Shown here: positions 2,026-15,989 of the stretch, piece by piece | How positions within the stretch are numbered: the first letter of the stretch is position 1 | How the letters are laid out: each line of letters starts with the position of its first letter | IMG/VR virus record: IMGVR_UViG_3300042549_004084 | Location: 1-24,123 of that record | Length of the DNA: 24,123 nucleotides | Direction: 5' to 3' (one strand) | Source: a virus | Translations under genes and position numbers: made by a program | Notes under the pieces: generated by a model | What the model saw: only the letters and a program-made list of their open reading frames with translations | The model's database searches: none | Told to the model about the DNA's origin: nothing

Positions 2026-2034
2026 TGGTACCAT
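2026..2034 (+). promoter_or_regulatory. Extended -10 promoter of the c4-like RNA / HNH leader
   Basis: TGGTACCAT is an extended -10 element (TGn followed by TACCAT). There is no clear -35, as is usual for extended -10 promoters. The predicted start is about 2041, five bases before the first base of the structured element at 2046. The same TGn-TACCAT arrangement recurs ahead of the terminase gene at 10515-10523. Confidence 0.5.
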
Positions 2035-2040
2035 GTTTGC

Positions 2041-2140
2041 ATCCCTTGGCGGGGATTCAGAGTAAGCCCTTGGGGCATGTCTGCCGTTACTCACGGTCCG
2101 CCAACACGCAAAAGCGTGAGACATGCGCCAAGGGCTTTTT
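2041..2140 (+). ncRNA. c4/CI-type antisense RNA with its target and terminator in one leader
   Basis: Two mutually exclusive folds can be drawn. Fold 1 pairs TTGGCGG (2046-2052) with CCGCCAA (2098-2104), and inside it GAGTAA (2060-2065) with TTACTC (2087-2092), leaving a short GCCC-TTG-GGGC hairpin (2066-2076). Fold 2 pairs AGCCCTTGGGGCATGTCT (2065-2082) with AGACATGCGCCAAGGGCT (2119-2136), 17 of 18 positions, directly followed by TTTTT (2136-2140). Two small hairpins, 2084-2096 and 2105-2118, sit inside fold 2. Layout and sequence resemble from memory the P1/P7 c4 and P4 CI immunity RNAs, in which a processed small RNA pairs in trans with a copy of its target in the same transcript. The target ends nine bases before the ribosome binding site of the HNH gene. 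Confidence 0.62.
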
Positions 2141-2153
2141 GTTTGGGGAAACC

Positions 2154-2921
2154 ATGGCAAAAACCATCGATATCACAGGGCTGCGGTTTGGAAGGCTAAT
2201 TGCATCGGAATATGTAAAAAGCGACAACGGTGCAATATGGGCTTACAAATGCGATTGCGGCAACAGCGTCATCCAAAGAACCACTCACATTCAACGAAAG
2301 CTGAAAAGAGGAAGCCCTGTTTCTTGTGGATGCGTAACGGCCTACACAAAGGTTTTTGATGATGGCATCAAATGTTTCGGGTGCCTTACCAACAAACCGC
2401 CATCGCACTTCAACAAATCAAAGAACGGTTACCAACCAAGATGCAAAGAGTGTCAAAAGCAATGGCGAGCTGAAAATGCTGCTTATTTAAAACAAGCCAA
2501 AGCCGAATATCATCAAAAGCATCGCGAGAATCTCAACAAAGCAGCCAGAGAGCGGCAGGCGAAAAACAAAGAACAGTCAAACGCCAGATCAAAAAGATGG
2601 CGTGATGCAAACCCTGATCGCCGCAAAGAAATTGCGAACGCATGGGCCAAAAGAAACCCAGAATCGGCGGTTCAACATCAAAGGCTGCGGACTGCAAAAG
2701 CAAAACAAGCTCAACCAATCTGGGCAAGAAAAGATTGCATGAAGGCAATTTACGTAGAGGCCAGACGCAGGCGCAATTCTGGAGAAAAATGTCACGTTGA
2801 TCATATTGTTCCGTTGTTGAGCCCCATCGTTTCCGGGCTTCACTGCGAAGCCAATCTTCAAATTATTTCGGCATTTGACAATCAATCAAAAAGCAACCGC
2901 CATTGGCCCGACATGCCATGA
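2154..2921 (+). CDS. HNH endonuclease, free-standing homing type
   Basis: The ATG at 2154 follows GGGGAAA and is the natural start; the frame continues upstream only through the structured leader. The 255-residue protein has an N-terminal zinc-binding module typical of phage HNH/AP2 endonucleases (DITGLRFGRL, Cys33/35, Cys58/60). A second Cys4 zinc ribbon follows (Cys74, 77, 97, 100), then a Lys/Arg-rich helical linker (about 101-200). The C-terminal HNH core shows His214, Asp216-His217, His230, Asn234 and Asn243-Asn248 (CHVDHIVPL, VSGLHCEANLQI). Base composition is visibly more AT-rich than its neighbours, which suggests recent acquisition. Its stop overlaps the helicase start as ATGA. It probably nicks or cuts DNA to spread itself; no RuvC domain is present, so it is not IscB or Cas9-like. 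Confidence 0.88.
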   Translation: MAKTIDITGLRFGRLIASEYVKSDNGAIWAYKCDCGNSVIQRTTHIQRKLKRGSPVSCGCVTAYTKVFDDGIKCFGCLTNKPPSHFNKSKNGYQPRCKECQKQWRAENAAYLKQAKAEYHQKHRENLNKAARERQAKNKEQSNARSKRWRDANPDRRKEIANAWAKRNPESAVQHQRLRTAKAKQAQPIWARKDCMKAIYVEARRRRNSGEKCHVDHIVPLLSPIVSGLHCEANLQIISAFDNQSKSNRHWPDMP

Positions 2922-4327
2922 CCATCACACTTCGCAATTACCAAGAAGACTTGGTCAAAAATGCACGCGCCAACTTTATTGCGGGAAAGCGCAGGCAGTT
3001 GCTTGTGCTTCCGACTGGTGGCGGCAAGACAGTTTGTTTTTCATACATGGCGCGTGCGGCAAAAGAAAAAGGCCTGCGTGTCTGGATTCTTGCGCATCGC
3101 GTTGAGTTGCTTGAGCAGATCAGCCGTACATTGAGCAGCTTCAACGTTGAGCACGGAATGATTGCTGCCGGGTATCCTGGCAACAGACATGCCCAGGTTC
3201 AAGTGGCATCGGTGTTCACGCTTGCTAGACGTCTTGATCGTTATGAACCAGCGGATTTGATCATCGTCGATGAGGCGCATCACGCAATTGCTGCATCAAC
3301 CTGGGGCACCGTAATCAAAGCCTGCCCAAACGCGCGCTTGCTAGGCGTGACTGCCACGCCGATTCGTTTGTCTGGTGAAGGCCTGAACGACTTGTTTGAG
3401 TGCATGGTGCAAGGGCCAACGGTCAAAGAGCTGATCGAAATGAATGCGCTTTCGCCGTACCGCTTGTTTGCGCCCGCTGGCGTCGACCTTTCTGGCGTAC
3501 ACACAAAGATGGGGGACTTTGTGCGCAGTGAGCTGGTGGATGCTATGAACAAGCGTTCAATCACTGGCGATGCTGTTTCTCATTACCAGCGCCTTGCCCC
3601 CGGCAAACGCGCTATCTGTTTTTGCTGCTCCGTTGAGCACGCTGAAAACGTGGCGGCGCAGTTCCGTGAGGCCGGGATCACTGCTGCATCAATCGATGGC
3701 AGCATGGACAAAGTTTTGCGCCAGCAGGTGCTTGCATCGTTCTCGTCTGGCGACATTCTGGTTTTGACGTCTTGCGATCTGGTTTCAGAAGGGTTTGATG
3801 TTCCGGCCATTGAGGTCGCCATTTTGTTGCGGCCAACAAAGTCTCTTGGCTTGTATTTGCAGCAGGTTGGACGAGCACTTCGTATTTTTCCAGGCAAGGA
3901 CGAGGCCATCATCCTTGACCATGCAAACGCAGTGCGGACGCACGGGTTCCCAGATGATGACCGCGACTGGTCATTGCTTGGCTCCGAGAAACGCAAAAAT
4001 GCCAAGAAGTCAGAGACACCAGTAAAAAGCTGCCCAGTCTGTTTTGCAACAGTGCCAAGCGCTGTAACAGATTGTGGTTGCGGCCATCACTTTGCGCCTG
4101 TGGCGCGGGAGATTGAAGAGGTCGAAGGTGACTTGGTGGAGATGACCAAAGAGGCTCGGGAGCAGCTTCGAGAGCAGGCCATCAAACAACGCAAGCAGGA
4201 GCAGGGCCGCTCGCAGACCGAGGCCGACCTGATACGCATCGCACGCGCCCGTGGCATGAAGCGGCCGGAGCTGTGGGCTAGGCACGTGCTGCGCGCACGC
4301 GCCGCCAAGGAGGCGCAACAGCGATGA
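2918..4327 (+). CDS. Superfamily 2 DEAD/DEAH-box helicase
   Basis: The ATG at 2918 overlaps the HNH stop (ATGA); a TTG at 2903 is possible but less likely. The 469-residue protein carries an N-terminal TLRNYQ motif (residues 4-9), Walker A LPTGGGKT (31-38), DEAH (118-121), TAT (145-147), SEGFDVP (290-296) and QQVGRALR (315-322): a complete SF2 helicase of the phage UvsW/RadD-like type. A C-terminal zinc ribbon (Cys372, Cys375, Cys386, Cys388) and a basic coiled tail follow. It hydrolyses ATP to unwind or remodel branched DNA during replication or recombination. It is coupled by overlap to the genes on both sides. Confidence 0.93.
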   Translation: MTITLRNYQEDLVKNARANFIAGKRRQLLVLPTGGGKTVCFSYMARAAKEKGLRVWILAHRVELLEQISRTLSSFNVEHGMIAAGYPGNRHAQVQVASVFTLARRLDRYEPADLIIVDEAHHAIAASTWGTVIKACPNARLLGVTATPIRLSGEGLNDLFECMVQGPTVKELIEMNALSPYRLFAPAGVDLSGVHTKMGDFVRSELVDAMNKRSITGDAVSHYQRLAPGKRAICFCCSVEHAENVAAQFREAGITAASIDGSMDKVLRQQVLASFSSGDILVLTSCDLVSEGFDVPAIEVAILLRPTKSLGLYLQQVGRALRIFPGKDEAIILDHANAVRTHGFPDDDRDWSLLGSEKRKNAKKSETPVKSCPVCFATVPSAVTDCGCGHHFAPVAREIEEVEGDLVEMTKEAREQLREQAIKQRKQEQGRSQTEADLIRIARARGMKRPELWARHVLRARAAKEAQQR

Positions 4328-4584
4328 CCTGCCCCACCTGCACCCACCCCCGCATCACGCTGATCGACGGCACCGAGACCTGCAGCTGGTCCGAGGACTG
4401 GCGAGCAGAGTGTGAGGCCCGCCACGTCCTGGCTATGCCCGGCAAGTTCGAACGGCGCGAGTACCTGCGCGGCCGTGAGGAGGCGGGCAAGATCGTCAAG
4501 CGCGGCGTGTTTCAAGTCCGGGGTGAGGCCGCATGCCTGCAGCTTGAGGCCCAGGTGCGCAAGGTCTGGGAGGCGCGGCGGTGA
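4324..4584 (+). CDS. Small phage protein with N-terminal CxxC (86 aa)
   Basis: This 86-residue protein opens with a CPTCTHPR zinc-knuckle-like motif and continues with EDWRAECEARHVLAMP, ERREYLR, then RGEAACLQLEAQVRKVWEARR. The middle and end resemble a small family seen beside replication genes in Burkholderiales phages (possibly DUF7696; uncertain). It starts by ATGA overlap with the helicase and ends by GTGA overlap with the VRR-NUC gene, so the four genes from the HNH gene to VRR-NUC form one coupled unit. Function is unknown; replication accessory is the likely context. Confidence 0.75.
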   Translation: MTCPTCTHPRITLIDGTETCSWSEDWRAECEARHVLAMPGKFERREYLRGREEAGKIVKRGVFQVRGEAACLQLEAQVRKVWEARR

Positions 4585-4892
4585 CCGAGGCAGATTTGAA
4601 GCGCGAAATCATGGTGGTGCTTTCGGCCGAAGGGCACTTCGTGGCCAGAGCCAACGTGGGGTTGTTCTTCACGGCCGACGGCAGGCCCGTCAAAACAGGA
4701 CTGCCGAAAGGGTTCTCGGATTTGTTTGGCCACCGGGCCAGCGATGCGCGAGCGATCTATCTGGAGGTCAAGACCGCCACCGGTCGGGCCAGCAAGGAGC
4801 AGCTTGCATTCATCAAAGCTATGAAAAAGCGCGGTGCCCTGGCGGCAATTGTGAGGTCGGTGGAGGATGCCAGGCTGGCGCTGGCAGAGTGA
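4581..4892 (+). CDS. VRR-NUC domain nuclease
   Basis: The start is GTG at 4581, overlapping the previous stop as GTGA. The 103-residue protein is a minimal VRR-NUC (PD-(D/E)xK fold) nuclease: GLPKGFSDLFG (about residues 40-50) carries the catalytic Asp, and IYLEVKTATGRASKEQLAFI (about 59-78) carries the ExK pair and the conserved Gln. Stand-alone phage VRR-NUC proteins are structure-selective, Holliday-junction-type nucleases, which fits its coupling to an SF2 helicase. Its stop codon directly abuts the 3' end of the antisense tRNA-like sequence. Confidence 0.9.
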   Translation: MTEADLKREIMVVLSAEGHFVARANVGLFFTADGRPVKTGLPKGFSDLFGHRASDARAIYLEVKTATGRASKEQLAFIKAMKKRGALAAIVRSVEDARLALAE

Positions 4893-4965
4893 TGGTAGCG
4901 GGCCACCGAATCGAACGGTGCGCGATAAGGCTTATGAGACCCTCCGGTGCCCAGCACCGCCCGCG
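4893..4965 (-). tRNA. tRNA-Met(CAU)-like sequence with encoded CCA and short D-arm
   Basis: Read on the minus strand from 4965 to 4893, the sequence forms a cloverleaf. The acceptor is CGCGGGC against GCCCGCT, with six pairs and a C1-T72 mismatch. The anticodon arm is AGGGT-CTCATAA-GCCTT with anticodon CAT. The T-arm is perfect (CACCG-TTCGATT-CGGTG), and the discriminator A and CCA are encoded. The D-arm is reduced to GGTGC-TGG-GCACC and the usual T8-A9 are missing, giving 73 nt. It lies antisense to its neighbours and its CCA abuts the VRR-NUC stop. An unpaired 1-72 position is a hallmark of initiator tRNAs, but the three G-C pairs of an initiator anticodon stem are incomplete. It may be functional, a decayed copy, or a tRNA mimic. 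Confidence 0.55.
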
Positions 4966-4970
4966 CCGAA

Positions 4971-4981
4971 ATCGTACCACA
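4971..4981 (-). promoter_or_regulatory. Extended -10 for the tRNA-like sequence
   Basis: On the minus strand TGTGGTACGAT contains TGn-TACGAT, an extended -10 whose predicted start falls at 4964-4965, the 5' end of the tRNA-like sequence. No good -35 is seen. Confidence 0.35.
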
Positions 4982-5044
4982 GCCGTTGCGCAAAACCGCA
5001 CAATATATTTTCACTGGTGTTGCGTTTTCCGCCCGACACACCCT

Positions 5045-5050
5045 TATACT
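5045..5050 (+). promoter_or_regulatory. Candidate -10 box upstream of the primase leader
   Basis: TATACT is a good -10 hexamer with predicted start near 5057. The best -35 is TTGCGT at 5020-5025 with a long 19-bp spacer, so the promoter is uncertain. A start at 5057 would fall within the first helix of the structured leader. Confidence 0.4.
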
Positions 5051-5054
5051 GTCC

Positions 5055-5118
5055 GTGGGGCTTGATCCGGTTCGCTACCGGGTGACACATGGCCTGACCC
5101 TGGCGAGGGCTGCCCCAC
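5055..5118 (+). ncRNA. Structured leader (three-way junction) ahead of primase-helicase
   Basis: GTGGGGC (5055-5061) pairs perfectly with GCCCCAC (5112-5118). Between them are two hairpins, CCGGT-TCGCT-ACCGG (5067-5081) and CCCT-GGCG-AGGG (5098-5109), joined by an unpaired GTGACACATGGCCTGA-like linker. This makes a compact three-way junction followed by CTTTTATT, 29 bases before the primase start. I do not recognise a known RNA family. It could be a cis-regulatory leader, a protein-binding operator RNA, or a weak attenuator. The open frame seen across it is not a gene. Confidence 0.4.
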
Positions 5119-5146
5119 CTTTTATTCGCCATAACCAAAGCCAGGC

Positions 5147-7696
5147 ATGACGGACACAAAAACAACAGGGCAGAGGGACCCCATTTCCCTTGAGACAGCG
5201 GAGCGCATGCTCTCCTATGTCCGTGGCGTTGATGACCGCGAGACCTGGGTGAAGATGGCCTTCATCCTCAAAGAAGAATTCGGCGAGCCCGCCTTCGAGG
5301 CCTGGGACGCGTGGAGCCAGCAGGGCGCCAACTACAAACCCATCGACGCCCGCGACGTCTGGAAATCGTGCAAGCCAGGCGGCAGCTCCAAACGCGCCAC
5401 CATTGGCACCCTGGTCGCCCTGGCCAAAGAGGGCGGCTTCAAATCCAACGCCCAAGACCGCAAGCCCGTTGACCCTGAGGAGCGCCAGCGCCGCATCGCA
5501 GAGCGCGAGGCCCGCATGGCAGCCGAGGAGGCCCAGGCCAAAATCGACCGCGACGCCGCAGCCACCCGCGCCGCCGAGATGTGGGCACGGGCCACCATGG
5601 TCACCGGCCACCCTTATTCCCAACGCAAGCTGATCGAGCCCGAGGGCGCGCGCATGCTGGGCGACGAGCTGCTCATCCCGCTGCGCCACGGCCCCGGCGC
5701 GCTGGTTGGCCTCCAACGCATCAAGCCCGACGGAACCAAGCTGTTCCTCAAGGGCACGCCCTCTGGCGGCGCTTACACCGTGCTGGGCAAGCCCGACAAG
5801 CAGGGCACGATCGTGATCGCAGAGGGCTGGGCCACAGCCTGCTCCATTCGGCAGGCCACCGAGCACTGCGTGGTGGTCGCCTTCAACTCCGGCAACCTCA
5901 TGCCGGTCGCCCGCAAGATCCGCGCGGCCATGCCCGAGGCCCGCATGATCATTGCGGCCGACGACGACTTCCAGACCAAAGGCAACCCCGGCATCGCCGA
6001 CGCCCGCAAGACAGCCATCGAGGTCAACGCGCTGCTGGCCATCCCGGTTTGGAGTCTGACAACTCGCGGCACCGGTACCGACTTCAACGACCTGCACCTA
6101 GCCGATGGTCTGGCTGCCGTCGAGGACTGCATCATGAAGGCCGACCCACCGGTCGAGCCCACGCCTGAGCCTCCACAGCCGCCCGAGCCAACGCCGGACC
6201 CCACGGACGACGCACCGCCTTGGGACGAGCACGCCGGCGACGGGTCACCGGACGACATTCCGCCGGATGATTTCGCCGATCAAACGCCACCGGACTCCGA
6301 CGATGAGCGGATGATCTTCTCCAGCTCACCCATGAAAACCGCCAGCCTGTTCCACAGCACACTGCCCGAGAAAGGCCGCATCCTGCACTGGCGCGGCGAG
6401 TTCTACAGCTGGGACGCCACGCGCTACGTCACCCGGGACCGGGTCTACATCGACCAGCGCCTCTACCATTTCATGGCCGGGTGCCAGACCCTGAAAATAA
6501 ATCCCAAGACCGGCGCGTCCGAGACGGTGGCCTTCAACCCAAAGTCCTCCACGGTCAACGATGTGGCCCACGCACTGCGCGCAGTCTGCTACGCCGACCT
6601 GCCCGAGCCGCAGGTCTGGATCGACGACGAGCCCGGCGACGTCCCGGCCCATGAGATCGTGGCCTTCAAAAACGGCTTTCTCCACCACCCCAGCCGGGCG
6701 CTCTTACCCTCCACGGACCGCCTGTTTTGCACCTCGGCCCTTGACTTCGACTTCACCCCCGAGGCCCCGCCACCCACCGAGTGGCTCAAATTCCTGCACA
6801 GCCTCTGGCCCAACGACCCCGAGTCGATCACCACACTGGCCGAGATGTTTGGCTACCTGCTGACCGACGACACCAGCCAGCAAAAGATGTTCATGCTGAT
6901 CGGCCCGCCTCGCTGCGGCAAGGGCACGATCTTGCGAATACTTGAGGCCTTGGTGGGGTACGCCAATAGGGTAAGCCCCAGCCTCGCGTCCCTTGGCACG
7001 CAGTTCGGCCTGCAGCCCCTGATCGGCAAGCGCCTGGCCATGATCTCCGACGCTCGCCTCTCCGGTCGCGCAGACCAGCAGCCCATCGTGGAAAACCTGC
7101 TGCGCATCTCCGGCGAGGACACCATCACCATTGACCGCAAGAACATGACCGCATGGTCCGGCAAGATGGCCATCCGTTTCGTGCTTGCCTCCAACGAGCT
7201 GCCCGCCTTCTCGGACGCCTCGGCTGCGCTGGCCAACCGCTTTTTGCCCTTCAAGTTCAGCACCAGCTTCTTGGGCAAAGAGGACCACAGCCTGACCGCC
7301 CGCCTGCTCAAAGATCTGCCCGGCATCGTGATCTGGGCCCTCGACGGACTTGGCCGCTTGAACCAGCGCGGCTACTTCCAACGCCCCACCTCAGCCGACG
7401 AGCTGGCTGCCGACCTGGTCGATCAGACCAGCCCGATCCGGGCCTTTGTGCAGGAGCACTGCGTCATCGGGGAGCACGCGCAGGCCGACCGCGACGAGCT
7501 TTTCAAGGCCTGGAAGGGCTGGTGCGAGTCCCAAGGCCGGGACCATGCGGGCACCAAAGTATCGTTTGGACGCCAGCTTTCAGCCGCTTTCCCGGGCATC
7601 AAACGCAGTCAGCCGCGTGAGACTGGCACACGATTGAATTTGTATTCTGGCGTTCGTTTGCGTGCTTCATGGGAAGATGGGGATGGCCCGTTGTGA
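5147..7696 (+). CDS. P4-alpha/D5-type primase-helicase
   Basis: The 849-residue protein is a multidomain replication enzyme. The N-terminus (about 12-97) resembles the PriCT-2 domain. A TOPRIM-type primase domain follows (about 165-330), with IVIAEGWAT (Glu226) and the AADDD acidic cluster (271-274). A Pro/Asp/Glu-rich linker (about 333-385) leads to a D5_N-type region (about 400-570) and an SF3 helicase with Walker A GPPRCGKGT (586-594), ASNELP (681-686) and a NRF arginine finger (697-699). It would make primers and unwind DNA at the origin. In P4 the homologous alpha protein also binds the origin iterons, and here an iteron cluster begins right after the stop codon. The ATG at 5147 has only a weak ribosome site (CAGGC), which may make expression depend on the structured leader. 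Confidence 0.93.
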   Translation: MTDTKTTGQRDPISLETAERMLSYVRGVDDRETWVKMAFILKEEFGEPAFEAWDAWSQQGANYKPIDARDVWKSCKPGGSSKRATIGTLVALAKEGGFKSNAQDRKPVDPEERQRRIAEREARMAAEEAQAKIDRDAAATRAAEMWARATMVTGHPYSQRKLIEPEGARMLGDELLIPLRHGPGALVGLQRIKPDGTKLFLKGTPSGGAYTVLGKPDKQGTIVIAEGWATACSIRQATEHCVVVAFNSGNLMPVARKIRAAMPEARMIIAADDDFQTKGNPGIADARKTAIEVNALLAIPVWSLTTRGTGTDFNDLHLADGLAAVEDCIMKADPPVEPTPEPPQPPEPTPDPTDDAPPWDEHAGDGSPDDIPPDDFADQTPPDSDDERMIFSSSPMKTASLFHSTLPEKGRILHWRGEFYSWDATRYVTRDRVYIDQRLYHFMAGCQTLKINPKTGASETVAFNPKSSTVNDVAHALRAVCYADLPEPQVWIDDEPGDVPAHEIVAFKNGFLHHPSRALLPSTDRLFCTSALDFDFTPEAPPPTEWLKFLHSLWPNDPESITTLAEMFGYLLTDDTSQQKMFMLIGPPRCGKGTILRILEALVGYANRVSPSLASLGTQFGLQPLIGKRLAMISDARLSGRADQQPIVENLLRISGEDTITIDRKNMTAWSGKMAIRFVLASNELPAFSDASAALANRFLPFKFSTSFLGKEDHSLTARLLKDLPGIVIWALDGLGRLNQRGYFQRPTSADELAADLVDQTSPIRAFVQEHCVIGEHAQADRDELFKAWKGWCESQGRDHAGTKVSFGRQLSAAFPGIKRSQPRETGTRLNLYSGVRLRASWEDGDGPL

Positions 7697-7893
7697 TGGC
7701 ACAGAATAAAACCTGTGCCGGCACGGGTTTGGCACGGGATCGAAATGGGCTGAAAACCCTTGTATTTCCTCACTTATTTCTATTGGCACAACATGGCACA
7801 GGTAAATAGACATGTATGTATATGCACACACACACACAAGAAGAACTGGCTGTAATGTGTTTTTCACGTGTGCCATCTGTGCCAGTTGTGCCA
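7697..7893. repeat. TGTGCCA iteron cluster with AT-rich core, probable replication origin
   Basis: Six exact copies of TGTGCCA or its complement TGGCACA occur in under 200 bases: 7697, 7784 and 7794 (TGGCACA; the last two ten bases apart) and 7869, 7878 and 7887 (TGTGCCA, exactly nine bases apart). Near copies at 7714 (TGTGCCG), 7719 (CGGCACG) and 7730 (TGGCACG) include a GTGCCGGCAC palindrome. Left copies mostly point one way and right copies the other. Between them lies an AT-rich stretch (7741-7860) with a (CA)7 tract at 7825-7838. Iterons flanking an AT-rich segment next to a primase-helicase gene match P4-type and plasmid iteron origins. Function is inference. Confidence 0.65.
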
Positions 7894-7947
7894 GCTCGTT
7901 CGTCCCATCAATTGCGAAAATCACACAACCGGAGTAATATTCTCATC

Positions 7948-9279
7948 ATGCAACCCTTACCCCCTTCCATCGGCGTCTATTCCATCCGGCCAATCGCTGG
8001 CCTGCAGCCGTATGAGAAAAACGCGCGTACGCATTCTGCGGCTCAGGTCGAGCAGCTGTGCCGGTCTATCCGCGAGTATGGGTTTACGAACCCGCTGCTG
8101 ATCGACGACCAGTCTCGCATCATTGCCGGTCATGGAAGGCTTCAGGCGGCTCTTGCGCTGCGAATGACCGAGGTTCCTTGCATCATCCTGTCTGGGTTGT
8201 CTGAGGCTCAAAGACGGGCCCTTATCCTGGCCGACAACAAGATCGCGCTCAACTCCGGCTGGGACGTGAAGCTGCTGGCCGAGGAACTGGCCGACCTCAA
8301 AACCGAGGGCTACGACCTGACCCTGACCGGCTTCTCGCTCGAGGAGATCGACGCGCTCACGCCTGTGCTGGTGCCCGAGAACGATCCCGACGATGCGCCC
8401 GACCTGCCAGCCGAACCCAAAACTAAACCCGGCGACGTGTACATCCTCGGGCCGCATCGCCTGGTCTGTGGCGATTCCACCTCGATCGACAACCTTGACC
8501 GCCTCATGCGTGGTGAGCTGGCCGACATGTGCTGGACCGATCCACCATACAACGTGGCCTACGAGACCAACGCTGGAAAAATCGCCAACGACGACCTGAG
8601 TGACAAGGAGTTCCGCGACTTCCTGTCCGGCGCCTACGCCTGCGCTTATGCTGCGCTCAAGCCTGGCGGCGCGATCTACGTGGCCCATGCCGACACCGAA
8701 GGCCTGAACTTCCGCGCGACTTTCACTGCTGCAGGCTTCAAGCTGTCCGGTTGCCTTGTCTGGCGCAAAGATTCGATGGTTCTTGGCCGCTCGGACTATC
8801 AGTGGCAGCACGAGCCAATTTTGTACGGCTGGAAACCTGGCAGCGCTCACCGCTGGTACGGCGGCCGCAAGCTGACGACCATGATTGACCTGAACCAGGA
8901 CGCGATGCCGTTTACCCGGCGCTCTGATGGCCGTTACGAGATCCGCATCGGCGATTCTGTGATGATCATCGACGGCACGGCCACGATCGAGGAGGTCATT
9001 CCTTCTGTCATCCGGGAGTCCAAGCCCAGGCGCTCGGATGGCCATCCGACGATGAAGCCCGTAGCTCTGATCGAGCGCATGCTGCGCAACAACGCGCGCC
9101 CCGGCGATATCGTTCTCGACCTGTTCGGCGGCTCTGGCTCCACCCTGATCGCTGCTGAACGGCTCGGCATGTGCGCCCGGTTGTCTGAGTTGGATCCAGG
9201 CTACTGCGACGTCATTGTGGCGCGCTACGAGGCCTACACCGGCCGCAAGGCTGTACTGGAGGTGCGTGATGCCTGCTGA
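7948..9279 (+). CDS. ParB-domain-containing DNA methyltransferase (N6-adenine or N4-cytosine)
   Basis: The chosen start is the ATG at 7948 (443 aa); the frame runs upstream to 7816 through the iteron region, without conservation. The N-terminal ParB/sulfiredoxin-like domain (about 10-105) shows PYEKNARTHS, IREYGFTNPLLID and IIAGHGRLQAA. The methyltransferase follows: DPPYN (198-202) is catalytic motif IV, and DLFGGSGST (391-399) is the SAM-binding motif I near the C-terminus, an order typical of beta-class amino-methyltransferases. An insert (about 322-362) precedes the GHPTMKPVAL motif. No restriction enzyme accompanies it, so it probably protects phage DNA or marks the adjacent origin. The ribosome site GGAG is 13 bases upstream, rather far. 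The next gene overlaps its end. Confidence 0.92.
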   Translation: MQPLPPSIGVYSIRPIAGLQPYEKNARTHSAAQVEQLCRSIREYGFTNPLLIDDQSRIIAGHGRLQAALALRMTEVPCIILSGLSEAQRRALILADNKIALNSGWDVKLLAEELADLKTEGYDLTLTGFSLEEIDALTPVLVPENDPDDAPDLPAEPKTKPGDVYILGPHRLVCGDSTSIDNLDRLMRGELADMCWTDPPYNVAYETNAGKIANDDLSDKEFRDFLSGAYACAYAALKPGGAIYVAHADTEGLNFRATFTAAGFKLSGCLVWRKDSMVLGRSDYQWQHEPILYGWKPGSAHRWYGGRKLTTMIDLNQDAMPFTRRSDGRYEIRIGDSVMIIDGTATIEEVIPSVIRESKPRRSDGHPTMKPVALIERMLRNNARPGDIVLDLFGGSGSTLIAAERLGMCARLSELDPGYCDVIVARYEAYTGRKAVLEVRDAC

Positions 9280-10530: not shown

Positions 10531-12108
10531 ATGACCCAGCCCATCTCCCCCGCCGTCATGCTGGACATGATCTCTAAGGAGCAGGCCCGCCGCAGAGCGG
10601 GCGCTTCGCTCTACGAGTTCGTCAAGCAGGCCTGGCACGTCATGGAGCCGGGCGTGCCCTTCGTGCCGAGCTGGCACATCGAAGAGATCTGCGAGCACTT
10701 GGAGGCCGTGAGCAGCGGCGAAATTCAGCGGCTGCTGATCAACATCCCGCCCCGGCACTCCAAGTCGACCATCGTCTCCGTGGCCTGGTGCGCCTGGGAG
10801 TGGATCACCCAGCCCCAGCAGAAGTTCTTAGCCGCGTCTTACTCCGGCTCGCTGTCCATCCGTGACAACCTAAAGGCCCGACGCCTCATCCAGTCGCCTT
10901 GGTACCAAGAACGCTGGGGGCACATGTTCGAGCTCGCTGGTGACCAAAACGCTAAGCAGCGATTCGAGAACAACAAGACCGGCTACCGGCTGGCCACCTC
11001 GGTCGGCGGCACGGCCACGGGTGAGGGCGGCTCGCGCCTGATCTTGGATGACCCCCACGGCGCGCAGGACGCGCAGTCCGAAACCATGCGGCAGACCGCC
11101 CTGGACTGGTTCGACGTGGTCTGGTCCACGCGTTTGAACAACCCAAAGACCGGCGCAATGGTGACGGTCATGCAGCGTCTGCACGAGAAGGACATCAGCG
11201 GCCACATCCTTGAGGACATCGGCGGCTGGGAGCACGTCTGCATCCCGGCCGAGTGGGACGGCAAGAAGCGGCGCACAGTCCTTGGCCCCTACGATCCCCG
11301 CACGGTCAAGGGCGAGCTGATCTGCCCCGAGCGTTTTGGCCCCGAGGAGATCACCAAGCTCAAGCAGCTGCTGGGCACCTACGGATCGTCCGGCCAGCTC
11401 CAGCAGGACCCCTCGCCGTCAAAGGGCGGCATTTTGGACACCGACCACTTCCAGCTCTGGCCGCACACGCAGCGCCTGCCGCAGTTTGAGTACGTGCTTC
11501 AGTCCTACGACACCGCGTTCTCCGAGCGCACCACGGGCGACCCCACCGCCTGCACCGTTTGGGGCGTGTTCACGCACAAAGGCATCCATCAGGGGATGCT
11601 GCTGGACGCTTGGGACGAGCCGCTCGGGTACCCGGACCTGCGCAAAAAGGTGATCGAGGATTGGACCTCGATGTACGGTGCCGACCCCGGACCCAAGGCT
11701 GGGATGCCGACCAAGGGCAGGCGTCCGGACCGGGTTTTGGTCGAGGCCAAGGCCAGCGGGCAGTCGTTGCTGCAGGACCTGCGGCTGGCCAAGGTCCCTG
11801 CCGTTGGCTACAATCCCGGAAACGCGGACAAGGTGTCAAGGGCGCACCAGGCCGCACCAACGCTGGAGCTGGGGTTGATTTGGATTCCCGAGTCCAACAA
11901 GAACCCTGGCCAACCGGTCAGTTGGGCGCAGTCTTTTCTGAAGCAGATCGCCAAGTTTCCTGTCGCAGAGCACGATGACTACGTGGACACGTTCACCCAG
12001 GCGGTCATTTTTCTGAAGAACGACGGCTGGTTCGAGTTGCCGCAAGCGCGGGACGTGGACGAGCACAGACTTGCAAGCAAGGAGAAGGTGAACCCTTATG
12101 CCGCCTAA
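10531..12108 (+). CDS. Terminase large subunit (TerL)
   Basis: The ATG at 10531 gives 525 residues; a TTG at 10507 and an ATG at 10558 are alternatives, and the only ribosome-like sequence is GGGGGG immediately before the ATG. The ATPase domain has Walker A IPPRHSKST (72-80) and the Walker B-like LILDDPHG with Asp173-Asp174. The RNase H-like nuclease has QSYDTAF (Asp327), VEAKASGQ (Glu405) and HDDYVDTFTQA (Asp482/483, Asp486). The PPRHSKS form with this C-terminus is common in phage terminases. It translocates DNA into the prohead and cuts concatemers, acting with the portal (15979-18477). Confidence 0.95.
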   Translation: MTQPISPAVMLDMISKEQARRRAGASLYEFVKQAWHVMEPGVPFVPSWHIEEICEHLEAVSSGEIQRLLINIPPRHSKSTIVSVAWCAWEWITQPQQKFLAASYSGSLSIRDNLKARRLIQSPWYQERWGHMFELAGDQNAKQRFENNKTGYRLATSVGGTATGEGGSRLILDDPHGAQDAQSETMRQTALDWFDVVWSTRLNNPKTGAMVTVMQRLHEKDISGHILEDIGGWEHVCIPAEWDGKKRRTVLGPYDPRTVKGELICPERFGPEEITKLKQLLGTYGSSGQLQQDPSPSKGGILDTDHFQLWPHTQRLPQFEYVLQSYDTAFSERTTGDPTACTVWGVFTHKGIHQGMLLDAWDEPLGYPDLRKKVIEDWTSMYGADPGPKAGMPTKGRRPDRVLVEAKASGQSLLQDLRLAKVPAVGYNPGNADKVSRAHQAAPTLELGLIWIPESNKNPGQPVSWAQSFLKQIAKFPVAEHDDYVDTFTQAVIFLKNDGWFELPQARDVDEHRLASKEKVNPYAA

Positions 12109-14678: not shown

Positions 14679-15989
14679 ATGTTTGACCAAATTGCAAGAA
14701 AATATGGCGTCATGAACTACGCCATGGGTGGCCCCGTAATGATGGCCGAGGGCGGTTTGACACCAGAGCAGTACCAGAGCATCAACGCGTACTTGGCCAC
14801 CAACCCGTCGGCCGAGGCTTTGGCTTCCGCTCAACAACAGTACGGTGTAAGCGATGCCGATCTGGCGGTTGCACGGCAGTTTGCCAACGTAGGTGCCGCA
14901 CCCGGCACGCCCGGCATGGACACTTCGCAGCCCGTGGTCGGCGGCGGCGGTTATGACCCTAATTGGAATCCAGACGATCCGTCAATGGGCGGCACCGTGG
15001 AGCAAGGTTATTCGCAGGCATACAGCCCTGAGCAGCTGCGAAATATTCGCGGTACGTTTGATCAATACCGCGAAGACCCCCAGAGAATGATGGAGTTAAT
15101 GACTCAGTACGGCGTCAACGTTAAAGACATCGCCACAGCCATGGGTGGATCGGAAAAAGGTTACCAAAACATCTTCTTGCAAGCAGGCGCGGCCCCGTCT
15201 TTTGGTGGCATGGACGACTACCAAGCGACCTCTGCCGACAAGGCATACCTCGACTACATGTTGAATCAGCCCAATTTTGCCGGGCAGGGAACGATGGCAG
15301 ACGTGTACAAGGCGCAGGGCATTGACCCCTACACCGACCCTCGCGTGCTGACACAAGCCCGTGAGGAGAACGAACGTCTGGTTCGCCGCAACTTGATGCG
15401 CACCAGTGCTGGCGCTGATCCCGTTCCAGGCCCCAGTGGCGGAGGTGGCGGCGGCGGAGGTGGCGGCGGCGGAGGTGGCGGCGGCGGAGGTGGCGGCGGC
15501 GGAGGTGGCGGCGGAGGTGGTGGCGGCGGAGGTGGTGGCGGCGGAGGTGGTGGCGGCGGCGGCGGTGTGACGCAGCCACCAACCCCGTTCACCGGCCCCA
15601 ACGGCACGATCTACCCCAACAGCATCCAGACCTCGCAGGGGCCGCAGCCCACCTACTTTCCGACAAGCTGGTGGACTCAATCGCCCTCGGCCAGCAAAGC
15701 CTACGGCCAAACAGCGCCAAGCACGGCGCGCAACTTCAACACCGAAATGGACGCCTACCGGGCAAAGTACGCGCCTGTTTTGACGCGGCCAGCACCACCG
15801 CCGCCGATACCCGCACCGGCTGCCAACACTCCGGTTGCCCAAGACCCAACAAAGCCTCCAACATCGGACCCCGGTGTGGGCAATGAATGGAAATGGAACG
15901 GCACAGCCTGGGTGGCTCAACCGATCCCAATTCAAGCGGCCCGTGGCGGCGAAGTAAACAAACTCTGGAACAAATACCATGGCCGATGA
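14679..15989 (+). CDS. Glycine-tract structural protein (436 aa)
   Basis: The ATG at 14679 follows AAAGGA. The first part (1-253) has an AMGGPVMMAEGGLTPEQYQ start like the preceding protein's tail, plus an acidic helical region. An uninterrupted run of 43 glycines follows (254-296). The C-terminal domain (297-436) includes GPNGTIYPNS, a Pro-rich linker and a final ARGGEVNKLWNKYHGR, close to the repeated R/AGGxV motif of the preceding protein. Such RGG/AEGG segments recur in phage virion proteins between terminase and portal. It overlaps the portal start by 11 bases. Its function is unknown; a flexible virion component is likely. Confidence 0.75.
   Translation: MFDQIARKYGVMNYAMGGPVMMAEGGLTPEQYQSINAYLATNPSAEALASAQQQYGVSDADLAVARQFANVGAAPGTPGMDTSQPVVGGGGYDPNWNPDDPSMGGTVEQGYSQAYSPEQLRNIRGTFDQYREDPQRMMELMTQYGVNVKDIATAMGGSEKGYQNIFLQAGAAPSFGGMDDYQATSADKAYLDYMLNQPNFAGQGTMADVYKAQGIDPYTDPRVLTQAREENERLVRRNLMRTSAGADPVPGPSGGGGGGGGGGGGGGGGGGGGGGGGGGGGGGGGGGGGGGGGGGGVTQPPTPFTGPNGTIYPNSIQTSQGPQPTYFPTSWWTQSPSASKAYGQTAPSTARNFNTEMDAYRAKYAPVLTRPAPPPPIPAPAANTPVAQDPTKPPTSDPGVGNEWKWNGTAWVAQPIPIQAARGGEVNKLWNKYHGR
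15438..15566 (+). repeat. Imperfect 15-bp repeats coding for 43 glycines
   Basis: The 129-base tract is built from GGN codons only. The first part repeats GGAGGTGGCGGCGGC, and later units are the variant GGAGGTGGTGGCGGC. The reading frame is kept throughout. Tandem in-frame units could expand or contract by slippage in multiples of five glycines without breaking the gene. Confidence 0.95.

Follow-up and report, generated by a model that had tools for sequence, protein, structure and literature searches.

Covarying leader RNAs with a built-in terminator ahead of phage replication genes: a probable cis-acting attenuator

The question raised by IMG/VR virus record IMGVR_UViG_3300042549_004084 is what a short self-complementary stretch of DNA, placed between a small upstream reading frame and an HNH gene, does for the phage. 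The whole record (24,123 bases) was analysed and is called the window below; it carries helicase, VRR-NUC nuclease, primase, ParB-methyltransferase, terminase, portal and capsid genes. The ParB-methyltransferase gene (7816–9279) encodes a ParB-like N-terminal domain fused to an N6/N4 DNA methyltransferase; a long GGN repeat at 15329–15607 gives a poly-glycine run in a 436-aa protein and may vary in length among relatives. The initial annotation had read the self-complementary stretch as a c4/CI-type antisense immunity RNA that carries its own target and terminator and controls an operon of HNH endonuclease, helicase and nuclease.

Anatomy of the element and its promoter

The pieces named in that annotation were all found in place: TTGGCGG (2046–2052) pairs with CCGCCAA (2098–2104), and GAGTA (2060–2064) with TACTC (2088–2092), to give the closed fold; arm 2065–2082 pairs with 2119–2136 at 17 of 18 positions (sole mismatch G2074·G2127) and is followed by the T-run T2136–T2140. 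The folding energy of the RNA was −55.8 kcal/mol vs a shuffled mean of −41.4 kcal/mol (z −3.79; none of 200 shuffles was as good). The parts are as follows (window coordinates, all plus strand).

2027–2034, extended −10-like promoter element TGG TACCAT, with the −10 around 2029–2034
2041–2056, hairpin hp1, ATCCC(TTGGCG)GGGAT; covarying stem, predicted transcript 5' end at 2041
2046–2051, pseudoknot 5' half, i.e., the hp1 loop TTGGCG; partner CGCCAA at 2099–2104
2060–2064, linker k5, GAGTA; pairs with the hp2 loop k3
2065–2082, arm5, 5' half of the terminator stem; forms the 18-bp helix with arm3
2084–2096, hairpin hp2, CCGT(TACTC)ACGG; the loop is k3, 2088–2092
2098–2104, pseudoknot 3' half CCGCCAA; pairs with TTGGCGG
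2105–2118, hairpin hp3, CACGC(AAAA)GCGTG; covarying stem, stacked on top of the arm helix
2119–2136, arm3, 3' half of the terminator stem; mismatch G2127 opposite G2074
2136–2144, U-tract of the intrinsic terminator, TTTTTGTTT in the window

In 152 relatives the only clear upstream signal was a −10 box, T-A-A-t-A-T, located 12–17 nt before the hp1 loop; it was accompanied by a weaker −35 signal (TT at −40) and by a preference for purine at the predicted +1, which is the first base of hp1. The phasing of this −10 box to the hp1 loop, together with the other two signals, leads to the prediction that the RNA starts at hp1 from a dedicated sigma-70 promoter. The promoter-like TGGTACCAT pointed out in the initial annotation sits where other members have the −10 box, but its TACCAT is a weak match and was not called by a consensus scan. 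A T-run of 6–9 is present in most members, and the distance from the U-tract to the start codon is nearly fixed in the family (about 15–20 bases).

The RNA family and its covariation

A search with the HNH protein led to three loci, L004 among them. In L004 a letter frame nearly identical to that of the window was kept (TTGGCGGGGATTCA ... GTCCGCCAACA), and both arms, the linker and the hairpin stems were changed together. The indels of L004 break the reading frame while the HNH protein, from 2154 on, is conserved; the 50-codon in-frame extension upstream of the HNH start is therefore not coding, as had been proposed, and no conserved leader ORF was seen between the window and L004.

Further relatives were gathered by pattern scans of IMG/VR, by BLAST against phages and with a covariance model built from 26 members. 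BLAST with the leader of the window itself gave no phage match, and other members were needed as queries. After parsing, at least 114 members that differ in arms and hp2 were obtained; window positions 2041–2144 are one of them (105.9 bits, E 2.7e-21, the window being one of the seeds of the model). Members are found in environmental phage contigs, Pseudomonas phage AH02, uncultured Caudoviricetes ct2t2046 and Leptolyngbya phage Lbo-JY16; the phages involved are those of Burkholderiales, Pseudomonas and a cyanobacterium; one bacterial genome with a member belongs to the order of Massilia. With strict filters, copies in bacterial genomes numbered 1 of 399 in that order and 0 of 369 in the class of a Pseudomonas genome. 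Pattern matches on genome contigs were taken as chance, none of 99 rechecked loci being scored as a member by the model. A divergent member (L396:3500–3625, 43 bits) was also seen, whose hp1 and pseudoknot do not parse at the usual place. An Rfam search with the window, a narrow region and four distant members returned no family, and no description of the RNA of this family was found in the literature searched.

Covariation was measured on 103 sequences: 96.5% of cells were paired (97.1% in the first 26 members), 31 pairs showed double changes, and the covariation score was 0.649 vs 0.169 for shuffled and at most 0.100 for slid controls. The hp2 stem was 100% paired and covarying in the same set; hp1 was built from 23 different complementary 4-bp stems among the 114 parsed members; in the arm helix (set A4) a compensatory change was observed at every one of the 18 pairs, G-U pairs being tolerated inside the arms. 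Covariation of the two folds among relatives exceeds the controls by far, so those of the window are not due to chance.

The linker:hp2-loop helix and the pseudoknot both lie outside the covariance model. For the former, at least 4 contiguous Watson-Crick pairs were counted in 104 of the 114 parsed members (91%) vs 25% with re-dealt partners; the null was restricted to Watson-Crick pairs, a G-U-allowing null being too lenient. Pseudoknot pairing in most members is partly by construction, because the search patterns named both halves. Independent cases come from elements found by the model: TTGGTC with GACCAA in L375, TTGGAC with GTCCAA in the second element of L506, and the second elements of L530 and L171. 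Together with TTGGCG, these four loci define three pseudoknot classes with matching partners (TTGGCG, TTGGTC, TTGGAC).

The arms are hypervariable (26 sequence types among the 114 parsed members). Exactly one mismatch was present in 97 of the 114 and none in 11; of 109 mismatches, 91 fell at stem positions 9–11, and the mismatch 2074/2127 of the window is thus an instance of this central feature of the family. A fixed host target for the arms was considered and rejected, the 26 arm types being unrelated. In 93 of the 114 parsed members no nucleotide separates the linker from the base of the arm helix.

Among 49 matching records, 46 contained one element and three contained two; in each of these three phages the two elements differ in pseudoknot class.

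L530, 6729–8067, minus strand: a TTGGCG-class element, a small HNH-like gene, a TTGGTC-class element, then a DUF1376-like replication gene
L171, 119–230 and 2448–2566, minus strand: two elements of different pseudoknot classes
L506, 5631–5746 (minus strand) and 10625–10743 (plus strand): two elements of different pseudoknot classes

The arrangement in L530 looks as if a unit of element plus endonuclease had been inserted ahead of a resident element.

Proposed switch and competing readings

The element is rather likely to be a cis-acting attenuator in the leader of a replication operon, its read-through state being pseudoknotted, and probably determines if the replication genes are switched on. 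A stable 18-bp stem with a U-tract stands before the gene, and an alternative fold is supported by covariation; the exclusion of the terminator by that fold would follow from geometry. In the terminator state both arms would be fully paired, ending transcription about 100 nt from its start. The read-through state would arise when the pseudoknot and the linker:hp2-loop helix form first during transcription; with the linker at the base of the arm helix and the hp2 loop at the top, the terminator could not close in its lower half, and polymerase would proceed into the replication genes. The central mismatch would mark the border between the upper half-stem, present in both states, and the lower half-stem, present in the terminator only. 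Because 18 stacked pairs separate the linker from the hp2 loop, the linker helix and the full arm helix should be mutually exclusive, and in this model the linker helix would be compatible with closure of the upper half only. That the pseudoknotted state is the read-through one, rather than the reverse, we infer.

Two competing folds had been postulated in the initial annotation. Both are real and covarying, but they share almost no bases; their conflict is geometric, since the linker helix immediately adjoins the terminator stem, at the stem's base. Nearest-neighbour averages gave −12.5 kcal/mol for the lower half-stem vs about −14 kcal/mol for linker helix plus pseudoknot. On prefix folding of the window, TTGGCGG:CCGCCAA was held until arm3 emerged, and the terminator was preferred thereafter; the nested terminator (−52 kcal/mol) is far more stable than the prefix fold (−31 kcal/mol), and read-through therefore needs a factor or kinetic control.

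What the immunity reading says about structure was supported: a structured RNA driven by a promoter, two alternative folds, an arm of variable sequence whose complement lies in the same RNA, a terminator, and a leader that is not translated. Its mode of action, in which the closed fold is processed out as a trans-acting RNA and the exposed arm pairs with arm3 in transcripts of an incoming phage, is improbable. The arm does occur in 26 sequence types, as immunity types would, and the element stands before replication genes, as P4 CI does; C4/P4 CI RNAs (RF01695; target c4-a1b1, RF03163) are likewise phage RNAs that are self-complementary in part and belong to the leader of early or replication genes. 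Their sequence and fold are, however, unlike those of the present family. A search of 1950–2250 with RF01695 gave no match at E ≤ 10, the controls P1 c4 and P4 CI scoring 68.8 and 74.9 bits, and reciprocally the family model found neither of the two. The c4 and CI RNAs act on two targets that flank the antisense RNA, upstream and downstream; within the members' own contigs no second site complementary to either arm was found above shuffled arms, only arm3 being complementary, and once termination has occurred the arm is locked in its own hairpin. Prophage immunity also seems a poor fit, since integrases are few (a tyrosine integrase in 4 of 37 long phage records; contigs may be fragments) and prophage copies rare; membership in c4/CI is accordingly not supported. 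A plain intrinsic terminator of the upstream genes, followed by a promoter and without any switching, is very improbable: the strong stem and U-tract would suit it, but it would leave unexplained that the pseudoknot covaries, that a linker:loop helix exists, that the core is conserved and that the mismatch is central. A DNA-level signal, such as a single-strand initiation site, can hardly be credited; its location beside replication genes would be apt, but G-U pairs in the arms, the promoter phased to the hairpin and the terminal T-run point to RNA.

The element was compared with known leaders. In antisense-controlled attenuators of the pT181 type, which belong to plasmid rep genes (cited in PMC10724649), a terminator hairpin in the leader of a replication gene likewise serves as the control point; there an opposite-strand counter-transcript is used, and the pseudoknot arrangement differs in the phage family. 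The isrK RNA (RF01394, Gifsy-1; SeqA of P4) yields, from a single promoter, a short RNA that is terminated and a longer mRNA made by read-through (PMC4825925), a likeness that extends to the phage setting; no Rfam match and no common fold link it to the present family. In its letters the pseudoknot agrees with that of the IncI-alpha/IncB leader (ColIb-P9 repZ pseudoknot, target of Inc RNA): that leader also precedes a replication gene, and in it a downstream CCGCC-A is the partner of the hairpin loop TTGGCG(G). PMC10724649 cites its rUUGGCG loop motif and its pseudoknot switch. In ColIb-P9, CTTGGCGGAAC is located at 324 and CTCCGCCAT about 110 nt later, before repA, and the phage family shows the same pairing of a UUGGCG hairpin loop with a downstream CGCC-A. 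The plasmid switch is translational and works with an antisense RNA, whereas the phage family has a built-in terminator, its linker:loop and arm helices being extra. Either convergence or common origin could lie behind the likeness.

Two further readings were weighed. A riboswitch or protein-responsive leader, in which hp1, pseudoknot and hp2 form a pocket that binds a metabolite or a protein of the phage while the arms serve as expression platform, is unlikely but has to be reckoned with: core letters are near-invariant, helices variable and the terminator follows directly, but neither a single downstream function nor a common neighbouring regulator gene was found in the family, and the invariance of TTGG and CCAA stems partly from the search patterns. 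Rather doubtful too is a genome-dosage sensor, in which terminated leaders would accumulate with phage copy number, bind in trans, via the hp1 loop, CCGCCAA or the hp2 loop, to leaders still being transcribed, and block the read-through fold, thus giving negative feedback on replication without a separate antisense gene. In a fuller form, just as tentative, recognition would be loop to loop and the TTGGCG, TTGGTC and TTGGAC classes would be non-cross-reacting addresses. The U-turn (YUNR) is the pattern of antisense-recognition loops, and the hp1 loop UUGG fits it; the same hexamer pair also occurs in the IncI replication leader, and the predominance of one element per record with different classes in the double cases is a further hint, but the double cases are just three and their class differences could be historical.

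Downstream genes and meaning of the family

Behind the element of the window lie the following genes.

2154–2921, plus strand, HNH/endonuclease VII-like protein, first downstream gene (phrog_1035 endonuclease VII, 5.5e-16; phrog_374 HNH, 3.7e-10)
2903–7696, plus strand, replication operon: helicase 2903–4327, VRR-NUC nuclease 4581–4892, primase 5147–7696 (phrog_16, PF08774, phrog_2249)

In the family the first genes mostly encode replication initiators, primosomal proteins or helicases. The 119 proteins encoded downstream included 40 with a match to one primosomal-protein family, 32 to replication initiation O-like, 27 to DUF1376 and about 19 to an HNH family. In members whose first gene is an endonuclease, the gene behind it usually encodes a replication initiator, a helicase or a family-A-polymerase-like protein (the last name rests on the opening residues of the protein only) and often overlaps the endonuclease stop. 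In many unrelated phages, endonucleases of the HNH/NUMOD4 and GIY-YIG kinds occupy exactly the interval from the leader to the first replication gene. The HNH gene as specific target of the element is not upheld family-wide, the element preceding replication genes with homing endonucleases inserted between; the converse idea, that the element is a property of HNH endonucleases, was rejected, as most members precede replication genes directly. Judged from gene order, the HNH gene is a passenger in the replication operon and not the reason for the element, because most members directly precede replication genes and endonucleases intervene in others, the window included. The gap between leader and replication gene is a recurrent entry point for homing endonucleases behind a common leader.

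An RNA family absent from Rfam 15, with very strong structural support, thus stands before the genes that start phage DNA replication. The variable arms with their near-constant central mismatch provide a rule for testing how a terminator might be kept open. If the attenuator reading is true, phages gate replication by an RNA switch in which the pairing letters of the pseudoknot are those of the IncI plasmid copy-number switch; dosage sensing, if true, would give phages a plasmid-like copy-number circuit without a separate antisense gene.
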